Notes under the pieces: generated by a model
Databases searched by the model: none
The model's input: only the letters and a program-made list of their open reading frames with translations
What the model was told of the DNA's origin: nothing
Assembly (NCBI RefSeq): GCF_002002925.1
Contig: NZ_CP019511.1
Location: 3,069,001-3,133,000, forward strand
Reading direction: 5' to 3'
DNA from: Sphingomonas sp. LM7
GTDB lineage: Bacteria > Pseudomonadota > Alphaproteobacteria > Sphingomonadales > Sphingomonadaceae
Length of the DNA stretch: 64,000 nt
Shown: in pieces, positions 7,162 through 53,271 of the stretch
Layout of the letters: each line of letters begins with the position of its first letter
Numbering within the stretch: position 1 is the first letter of the stretch
Made by a program: the position numbers and the translations under genes

Positions 7162-8418
<1,257 letters not shown>

Positions 8419-9631: not shown

Positions 9632-10324
9632 TCAGCGGATATGCTCGGCAAAGAACGCCGCCGTGCGCTCGTCTGCGAGCTGCGCCGCCGCCTCCGAGCG
9701 GCGTTTGCCCATCTCGGCCGCGAAGCCGTGATCCTCCCCGGGATAGTCGTAGATCGTCACCTTGGGATGATCATCGAGACCCTCATGCATCTTCGCCTGG
9801 ATGTCCGGCGTGACGAAATGATCGGCGCCGGCGACATGGAGCAGCACCGGGTTGGCGATCGCATGCTTCTCGCCAAGCAGATTATCGATGCCGACGCCAT
9901 AATAGCCGACGCTCGCGTCCGAATCGGTCCGCGTCGCGGCCATGAAGGCGAGGCGGCCGCCCAGGCAATAGCCGACCACGCCGACCTTTCCGCCGCCTAG
10001 CTTCGCGCGCGCCGCTTTGATCGCCGCCTTGATATCGGCGACACCCAATTGCTGGTCGAACTTGTTCATCCAGCCGAAGGCCTCCTGCATCTGCTCGGGA
10101 ATGTCCGGGTCCAGCTCGATGCCGGGCTCGAGCCGCCAGAAAAGATCCGGCGCCAGCGCGAGATAGCCGGCGGCTGCCCAATCGTCGCACTTCTGGCGGA
10201 TCCCAGGGTTCACCCCGAAAATCTCCTGGATCACGACGATTGCGCCGCGCGGCATGTCCGCGGGCTCGGCAATATAGGCGTCGAAGCTGCCGCTGCCGTC
10301 GCTCGCGTCGATCTGGATCGTCAT
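9632..10324 (-). CDS. Dienelactone hydrolase family protein
   Basis: A 230-aa alpha/beta hydrolase. The nucleophile elbow is GYCLGG with Cys120 in place of serine, as in true dienelactone hydrolases; Glu34 (QEIFG), an Asp in AGADHFVTPD and the His in EDHGF complete the site. In the family it opens dienelactone to maleylacetate in chloroaromatic breakdown, but many genomic members have unknown substrates, and no aromatic pathway genes flank it. Its start overlaps the stop of ogt by 4 nt. Confidence 0.9.
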   Translation of the reverse strand: MTIQIDASDGSGSFDAYIAEPADMPRGAIVVIQEIFGVNPGIRQKCDDWAAAGYLALAPDLFWRLEPGIELDPDIPEQMQEAFGWMNKFDQQLGVADIKAAIKAARAKLGGGKVGVVGYCLGGRLAFMAATRTDSDASVGYYGVGIDNLLGEKHAIANPVLLHVAGADHFVTPDIQAKMHEGLDDHPKVTIYDYPGEDHGFAAEMGKRRSEAAAQLADERTAAFFAEHIR

Positions 10325-51945: not shown

Positions 51946-53271
51946 ATGGCCCGCTTCACTTTCCGCCTGCCGGACATCGGCGAGGGCATCGCCGAAGCCG
52001 AGATCGTCGCCTGGCACGTCAAGGTCGGCGAGCGCGTCGAGGAAGACCAGCAGGTCGCCGACATGATGACCGACAAGGCCACCGTCGAGATGGAATCGCC
52101 GGTGTCGGGCGTAGTGGTCGAGCTGGCTGGCGAAGTCGGCGACCAGGTCGCGATCGGATCGGCGCTGATGGTGGTCGAGACCGACGGTGACGCCAATGCG
52201 CCGCAGGAACCGGAAGAGGATCAGCTCGAAGCCGAAAATCCTGGGGTCGAGGAAGTAGCTGAAACTCCCCTCCCTGCAAGGGAGGGGCCGGGGGTGGGTG
52301 CGAGCGCAAGCGAGCCTACCACGCCTGCGCCAAAGGCCGACGCCGGGGCATCGAGCCCCGTCGCTAGCCAACCCACCCCCGGCCTCTCCCTGGAAGGGAG
52401 GGGAGTAGAAAAGCACGTCCTCGCCTCCCCGGCGGTCCGGGCGCGCGCCAGGGACCTCGGCATCGATCTCGCCTCCGTGAAAGCCGAGGGCGACCGCCTG
52501 CGCCACGCCGATCTCGACGCCTATCTCCGCTACGGCCATGGCCAGGGCTATCACGCCCCACATGCCAGCCGCGCGCGCGAAGACGAGCCCATCAAGGTCA
52601 TCGGCATGCGCCGCCGCATCGCCGAGAACATGGCCGCGTCGAAGCGCACGATCCCGCACTTCACCTATGTCGACGAGATCGACGTCACGGCGCTCGAAGC
52701 GATGCGCGGCGACTTGAACGCCAATCGCGGCCAGCGTCCCAAGCTGACGATGCTGCCGTTCCTGATCGTCGCGATCTGCCGGACGATCCCCGATTTCCCG
52801 ATGATCAATGCGCGCTACGACGACGAGGCCGGCGTGGTCACGCGCCACGGCCGCGTCCATCTCGGCATGGCCGCGCAGACCGATGCCGGGCTGATGGTCC
52901 CGGTGATCCGCGACGCGCAGGATCGCAACGTCTGGCAGCTCGCGTCCGAGATCGGCCGCCTCGCCGAGGCCGCGCGCACCGGCAAGGCCAAGAGCGAGGA
53001 ACTGAGCGGATCGACGCTTACGATCACGTCGCTCGGCCCGCTCGGCGGCATCGCCACCACGCCGGTAATCAACCGTCCCGAGGTTGCAATCATCGGCCCC
53101 AACAAGATCGTCGAACGGCCGATCTTCCAGGGCGACGAGATCGTCCGCGCCAAGCTGATGAACCTCTCGATCAGCTGCGATCACCGCGTCGTCGATGGCT
53201 GGGATGCGGCGAGCTTCGTCCAGGCAGTGCGGAAATTGCTCGAGACCCCGGTGCTTCTGTTCGCCGACTGA
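51946..53271 (+). CDS. bkdB: Dihydrolipoamide acyltransferase (E2) with repeat-derived linker
   Basis: A 441-aa E2. The lipoyl domain (1-80) has lipoylated Lys44 in MTDKATVEME. The acidic linker is followed by a stretch (about 107-155) made by an inverted REP pair in the DNA. Then come the peripheral-subunit-binding domain (about 157-195: HVLASPAVRARARDLGIDL) and the catalytic domain (MRRRIAENMAASKRTIPHFTYVDEID to the active-site CDHRVVDGWDAASF). The E3 is not in the window. The linker insertion keeps the frame open. Confidence 0.93.
   Translation: MARFTFRLPDIGEGIAEAEIVAWHVKVGERVEEDQQVADMMTDKATVEMESPVSGVVVELAGEVGDQVAIGSALMVVETDGDANAPQEPEEDQLEAENPGVEEVAETPLPAREGPGVGASASEPTTPAPKADAGASSPVASQPTPGLSLEGRGVEKHVLASPAVRARARDLGIDLASVKAEGDRLRHADLDAYLRYGHGQGYHAPHASRAREDEPIKVIGMRRRIAENMAASKRTIPHFTYVDEIDVTALEAMRGDLNANRGQRPKLTMLPFLIVAICRTIPDFPMINARYDDEAGVVTRHGRVHLGMAAQTDAGLMVPVIRDAQDRNVWQLASEIGRLAEAARTGKAKSEELSGSTLTITSLGPLGGIATTPVINRPEVAIIGPNKIVERPIFQGDEIVRAKLMNLSISCDHRVVDGWDAASFVQAVRKLLETPVLLFAD
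52264..52406. repeat. REP-type inverted pair inside the E2 coding sequence
   Basis: ACTCCCCTCCC (52264-52274) pairs perfectly with GGGAGGGGAGT (52396-52406). GGCCGGGGGTGGGT (52286-52299) pairs with ACCCACCCCCGGCC (52371-52384). Each arm also contains its own hairpin (CCCTCCCTGCAAGGGAGGG at the left). The element is 143 bp and encodes part of the protein linker. Confidence 0.8.

Follow-up and report, generated by a model that had tools for sequence, protein, structure and literature searches.

The locus described here raises the question how an inverted pair of repetitive, hairpin-capable DNA sequences came to lie in frame within the gene of a conserved enzyme, and whether this was a single event or one of many at a site that accepts them. 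The gene is located in the window, i.e. the whole stretch of 64,000 nucleotides of Sphingomonas sp. LM7 DNA that was analysed. Our comparisons indicate that the interdomain linker concerned is probably a permissive site at which REPIN-like elements have landed repeatedly in Sphingomonas and neighbouring genera.

The E2 gene and its REPIN-like element

The gene (51946..53271, + strand) encodes 441 aa and was delimited by its open reading frame, its translation and Pfam domains. A lipoyl domain (PF00364, residues 5-76, 51958..52173, +), an E3-binding or peripheral subunit-binding domain (PF02817, residues 158-182, 52417..52491, +) and an acyltransferase domain (2-oxoacid_dh, PF00198, residues 212-439, 52579..53262, +) follow one another in the order expected from Pfam for an E2 acyltransferase. 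Genes of the E1alpha and E1beta type precede it, and this cluster suggests an E2 of the branched-chain 2-oxoacid dehydrogenase type; every match of the protein to an NCBIfam E2 model was under the model cut-off. The E2 core is highly conserved, and the closest named relative, from Sphingomonas sp. DG1-23 (L102), reached 92% in the best segment. The interdomain linker (residues 77-157, 52174..52416, +), taken as the gap between the first two Pfam domains, is the site that appears recurrently colonised when 220 E2 loci, duplicates included, are compared.

Within this linker, motif matches, an inverted-repeat search and an alignment of copies delimited an element of 143 bp (52264..52406, +). It lies wholly inside the linker, in frame, and corresponds to residues about 107-154; the roughly 48 in-frame residues that the initial annotation had placed between the lipoyl and subunit-binding domains are thus bounded by Pfam domains on both sides. 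Two REP-like sequences in opposite directions had been reported there as well, with arms of 11 bp and 14 bp. Both motifs were indeed found: ACTCCCCTCCC at 52264-52274(+) and 52396-52406(-), its only matches in the window with ≤1 mismatch, and GGCCGGGGGTGGGT at 52286-52299(+) and 52371-52384(-), with one further match, with 2 mismatches, at 7697 of the window. The true arms are longer, however, and the inner part of the element is dispersed as well. Inverted repeat and open reading frame define a left REP arm (52264..52299, +), corresponding in translation to TPLPAREGPGVG, and a right, inverted arm (52371..52406, -), read on the + strand as QPTPGLSLEGRG(V). Each has 36 nt, of which 33/36 (92%) are complementary, and 71 nt separate the two. 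Between them, two inner boxes were recognised by eye in the alignment of 20 copies: GCGAGCGCAAGCGAGCC (52300..52316, +), which other copies carry in the same form or in a second form of the GCGCGCGTCTGCGCGC type, and GGGGCATCGAGCCCC (52345..52359, +), with a GGCATCGAGCC-like box in about 14/19 other copies.

As single words with mismatches, the motifs are not much above chance in the window, where shuffled sequence reached the observed count in 27/100 cases for ACTCCCCTCCC and in 4/100 for GGCCGGGGGTGGGT; the inverted pair, unlike its single words, is far beyond chance there. Folding of the element strand gave -112.2 kcal/mol, compared with -71.6 (sd 4.8) for 200 shuffles (z -8.4). The best inverted repeat of the linker scored 28.5, whereas the 99th percentile of 8800 codon-shuffled linkers, taken over all linkers, was 12.5 and their maximum 16.0. 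With two inverted REPs, a spacer and the capacity to form a hairpin, the element shows the architecture of a REPIN.

Copies of the element elsewhere in the genome

The genome (4,155,514 bases, one contig) contained 19 matches to the stem pattern, with 0 for the reversed-pattern control, and 28 matches to the tail pattern with ≤1 mismatch (reversed control 1); a separate count of the tail pattern in this genome gave 24 (reversed control 0). The window element could be aligned with 19 other genomic copies, to which the E2 copy was 66-78% identical. For this alignment 22 of the 34 entries for REP loci were taken and two with a span below 100 bp were dropped; some of the remaining 20 are truncated owing to the way in which their ends were located. 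Arms and inner boxes are common to the aligned copies, the whole doublet being dispersed as a unit in the manner of a REPIN. Among the 34 entries, which partly overlap, 19 had no reading frame open across them, an open frame in GC-rich DNA being weak evidence for a gene. A lack of copies elsewhere in the genome had been named beforehand as evidence against an inserted repeat, and the search for motif copies returned dispersed ones.

This dispersal also bears on the simplest alternative, namely that a GC-rich, low-complexity linker took on the look of a palindrome by accident. The linker DNA is GC-rich, in line with such an origin, but codon-shuffled linkers rarely score 13 and reversed patterns are almost absent from genomes. 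For the window element, chance is refuted because the whole element is dispersed in the genome, and we attribute next to no probability to it as a general explanation.

The interpretation of the inverted REP pair as a REPIN holds as far as the dispersed inverted doublet is concerned, but not for the associated gene: Y1_Tnp (PF01797, RAYT) had no match in this genome, while the same search was positive in 5/14 control genomes. The RAYT gene may have been lost here or may be present in other strains. For this reason we call the element REPIN-like rather than a proven REPIN, the missing match being that to Y1_Tnp. The 20 aligned copies of the window element have no conserved GTAG or CGTC tag at their ends. 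The REP pattern of family B, one of the linker families described below, had 33 matches in this genome and those of families C and F had none. At least two REP families coexist in a genome without a detected Y1_Tnp gene. In the genes for PDH E2 and SucB of this genome, the one genome in which other linkers were compared, no REP core was detected, and their linkers had no strong inverted repeat (scores 8, 6.5, 8.0).

Other REP pairs of the genome may also touch coding sequence. Among ten loci inspected, a second, decayed REPIN-like pair was found in frame in another protein (L025:1360-1540, G000:C1 about 10040-10220), where it lies upstream of an Smr domain (PF01713) and again in a linker-like stretch. 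Two further pairs lie directly upstream of a gene, in one case for a peptidase M19 (PF01244) with a lipoprotein-like signal (L021, G000:C1 about 2012288) and in the other for a protein resembling a membrane protein (L017, about 3918817). In both, an open frame continues from the REP into the gene, and the N-termini may include REP codons.

Occupancy and turnover of the linker across the genus

An E2 match was obtained in 151/151 genomes of the genus. The best E2 region was compared for 144 of them (30 + 114), with seven genomes left out, and the linker was readable in 140, the exceptions being L265 and L271, whose linkers contain a frameshift, L272, which has no common frame, and L274, which ends at a contig edge. 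Both frameshifts (genomes G088 and G053, respectively) lie inside REP-bearing linkers and reflect either an assembly error at the palindrome or a broken gene. Pairs were called intact from an ungapped inverted-repeat score of 13 upwards. By this measure 98 of the 140 readable linkers held an intact inverted pair, 13 a decayed one and 29 none. Intact pairs were also present in named loci of other genera, namely Sphingobium (L147, L156), Hephaestia (L112) and Sphingosinithalassobacter (L150).

The intact pairs belonged to eight families (C 32, F 18, B 12, D 10, E 9, A 8, H 6 and G 3 genomes), as defined by ourselves from the linkers. A cautious count would be five groups, since A and D share a G-rich tail, E and G are alike and so are C and H; the sequences of B, E and F have little in common with those of other families. 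The encoded peptides illustrate the diversity: PLPAREGPGVG...PTPNPSLAGRG for A, VRAEPVEA...FDKLRANG for B, PSPLRGEG...PLPAGERE for C, ILPGTGRGT...GPPPRAGE for F and PAKAGAQ...GPRPSPG for E. Some labels were set by hand, i.e. family H (six E2s), B for L122, F for L136, f for the relics L243 and L273, and no insert for L137 and L249. The labels of decayed inserts are the weakest: the family-score threshold was 1.30, whereas the reversed-linker control had its 95th percentile at 1.31 and reached 1.47 at most.

The insertions share a common site. Downstream of one motif (TPAYE and variants), three loci had no insert (L246, L206, L219), and within a few codons of the same type of motif we found D (L202), C (L199), F (L218), G (L215) and H (L252, placed by eye). 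The initial annotation had regarded a linker shared by all relatives as unfavourable to it; comparison of their E2s instead showed other families, or none, at the same place. Its suggestion that a flexible linker tolerates such an insert is consistent with the occupancy of the homologous linker by many families. Relics and layers were also observed: in L069 a partial F element is followed by a full C element, and in L273 (G128) a single, collapsed REP hairpin is left in a linker of only 37 residues, whereas its relative L232 (G133) has the pair. From the letters, the L273 linker looks like the product of an in-frame deletion between short direct CCTCCCCG repeats of a former pair. In four linkers (L223, L252, L254, L255) a further element, about QHRVDRAPRDQGHAGGMTDP or a variant, was seen inside or beside the right REP arm, i.e. 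a repeat nested in a repeat.

Occupancy depended on the repeat load of the genome. The patterns of C, B, A/D and F were counted genome-wide in 151 genomes, E, G and H being left out. For B, A/D and F the reversed controls gave no or almost no matches; the one for C is uninformative because this pattern is near-identical backwards. A family was more abundant in the genomes whose E2 it occupied (B, P=0.0002; F, P=1.4e-5; A/D, P=0.02; C, P=0.036; kinship ignored). An intact E2 pair was found in 63/71 genomes with at least 30 copies of the four counted types, in 25/37 with 10-29 and in 10/32 with fewer than 10. Twelve of the 32 genomes with C in E2 had at most two C-pattern matches in total, perhaps the E2 copies themselves, and some repeat-rich genomes, e.g. 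G087 and G050, had an unoccupied linker. The named loci (75, of about 11 kb) held 135 REP cores of six families. Of these, 86 were located in the linker, i.e. 4.54 per kb vs 0.059 per kb elsewhere, and none in the rest of E2.

Switches between families were counted on a tree of 185 distinct E2s, calculated from the DNA of the lipoyl side and core of this single gene with the linker excluded. The labels changed at least 96 times, as compared with a mean of 121 and a minimum of 113 in 100 shuffles; we therefore conclude on inheritance plus much turnover. Collapse of branches with less than 95 SH-aLRT left at least 74 label changes for the 185 E2s and at least 51 family changes among the 133 intact ones. 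Merging the eight families to five gave at least 43 changes among these 133. Of the intact E2 pairs that were 95-97% identical, 9/13 belonged to different families whether or not similar ones were merged; these 13 pairs are not independent, since only 15 E2s are involved. The switch counts could be inflated by allelic exchange or by errors of a single-gene tree. The initial annotation had seen one insertion; it is present, but as one of dozens of events at a site where relatives hold other repeat families.

The possibility of exchange deserves attention, since homologous recombination might swap E2 alleles or linker segments between species, so that most switches would be transfers of a few old insertions. 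The highly conserved E2 core would ease such exchange, short flank motifs, as judged by eye, are common to some distant holders, and the single left-arm frame per family, described below, would follow from a single ancestral insertion. We nevertheless consider this rather improbable: occupancy tracks how many copies of that family the genome itself carries, inserts of the same family have clade-specific inner sequences, and five families occur at one shared motif, beside relatives without insert. Even less probable in our opinion is a single ancestral linker element that was converted in place to whichever family abounds. It would explain the constant site and the near-consensus arms, and the likeness of A to D, of E to G and of C to H would suit it, but B, E, F and the others have little sequence in common, insert-free linkers and layered remains exist, and switches stay frequent after similar families are merged.

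Reading frame, hairpin and comparison with known systems

The open frame suggests that the REP stretch is translated into the E2 protein. Of 127 intact inserts of families A to G, 86 had both strict anchors and were used to determine the frame. The left arm was found in one frame in five of the seven families (A 8/8, D 13/13, B 12/12, E 10/10, G 3/3), although common ancestry within clades makes some of these cases dependent on one another. In F the proportion was 12/15, and C used two registers (19 and 6), partly via loop length. For the right arm the frame was fixed in A, E, F and G and split in B (8 and 4), D (7 and 6) and C. Stop codons alone cannot explain the bias, because in the consensus arms of A, D, E, F and G, as written by ourselves, all three frames are stop-free. 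REP-derived residues were rich in Pro, Gly and Ala, with almost no Cys, Trp, Phe or Tyr.

These observations are most likely accounted for by REPIN-like elements that spread in the ordinary way, by a filter on reading frame and by a single permissive linker that is occupied, loses its insert to decay and is occupied anew. Whole elements, i.e. two inverted REP arms with their inner sequence, would spread through the genome, and insertions inside genes would presumably mostly be lost. An insertion into the linker would survive when the frame is kept and the peptide is soluble, with much Pro, Gly and Ala and hardly any Cys or Trp. The insert would later decay, be deleted or be overlaid by another family, and for this reason related species would carry different occupants at one homologous place. 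Each family switch would then represent a fresh insertion, and translation of the insert would yield a stable protein. The proposal that the translated element is a new source of linker sequence agrees with these data, insofar as the open frame reflects translation.

The arms evolved in an unusual manner. In 24 disjoint same-family pairs they differed by 4.0/5.8/5.0% at codon positions 1/2/3, the inner part by 9.7/9.0/16.1%, the linker flanks by 9.4/5.7/31.0% and the E2 core by 2.1/1.0/17.7%. The flat divergence of the arms is a DNA-like and not a codon-like pattern. It also stayed below the 14-20% obtained in neutral simulations that allowed for the picking of arms. Together with the very stable fold of the window element, this slow divergence speaks for a selected hairpin in E2, at the level of mRNA or DNA structure, that would pace translation after the lipoyl domain or aid transcript processing; elements would swap and the structure would stay. 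Intergenic REPs at shared sites, however, look equally slow (4.2% over 16 overlapping comparisons with few sites, a value that the search pattern biases low), so that slow arms are possibly a general trait of these repeats and no proof of a role in E2. Moreover, the 29 genomes without insert do without such a hairpin, and paired double changes in the arms were few (6 complementary and 7 other, with about 2.5 expected by chance). Compensatory pairing was accordingly too rare to be retained as support, and E2-specific hairpin selection, weakened by the intergenic REPs, was not retained as the main explanation; we regard it as unlikely. Somewhat better, if still doubtful, are the prospects of a wider hypothesis in which the linker is a standing niche throughout the Sphingomonadaceae. 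Families would compete for it and replace one another, the host would use any of them as linker protein and the hairpin itself would be selected, which would put about 240 bp under two kinds of selection at once, one on the protein spacer and one on the structure of the nucleic acid.

If the filled, decayed and refilled linker proposed above is confirmed, it provides a countable natural experiment on mobile repeats turning into protein sequence. One could then ask which reading frames persist, at what rate inserts decay and whether the sequence of a linker is important in a large enzyme complex.

In-frame palindromic repeats are already known from Rickettsia, O. terrae, ERIC and scattered other cases, according to PMC3733652 and PMC10969869. 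Among the open-access papers searched, titles and opening lines contained no report of REPs in Sphingomonas E2; single cases may sit in the supplementary list of PMC3733652, which covers some sphingomonads. REPINs are described in PMC3116915 as two inverted REPs with a spacer that is less conserved than the REPs, dispersed, hairpin-forming, mainly extragenic and RAYT-linked. The E2 case differs in that the hotspot lies in coding sequence and the genome gave no match to Y1_Tnp. The Rickettsia palindromic elements, about 100-150 bp long, lie in frame within conserved genes and are translated with them (PMC10969869 and PMC2229807). The parallel to these elements drawn in the initial annotation is borne out by the in-frame palindrome in a conserved protein gene in both systems, a likeness of architecture. 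The Rickettsia elements are reported from many different genes, whereas in E2 a single homologous linker receives many families across the genus, with replacement. ERIC and Correia elements, too, are fused in frame (PMC2229807, PMC10969869) and resemble our case as MITE-like repeats read as part of a protein. They concern other hosts and genes, and the sections consulted mention no recurrent single site for them. A parallel in position comes from PMC3733652, where GTAG/CGTC REP dimers inside ORFs encode 20-30 residues in several bacteria including S. alaskensis, and where recB of X. campestris and X. oryzae carries different REPs at about the same site. Both features, REP dimers in ORFs and different REPs at about one site, are shared by the E2 linker, but no end tag is conserved in the copies of the window element. 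Furthermore, the recB case, as reported there, involves two species, whereas recurrence in E2 extends to five to eight families and dozens of switches. In comparison with these systems, the E2 case stands out in that five to eight repeat families have been sampled at a single homologous linker, where relics, layers, insert-free relatives and switches at 95-97% E2 identity are seen as well.
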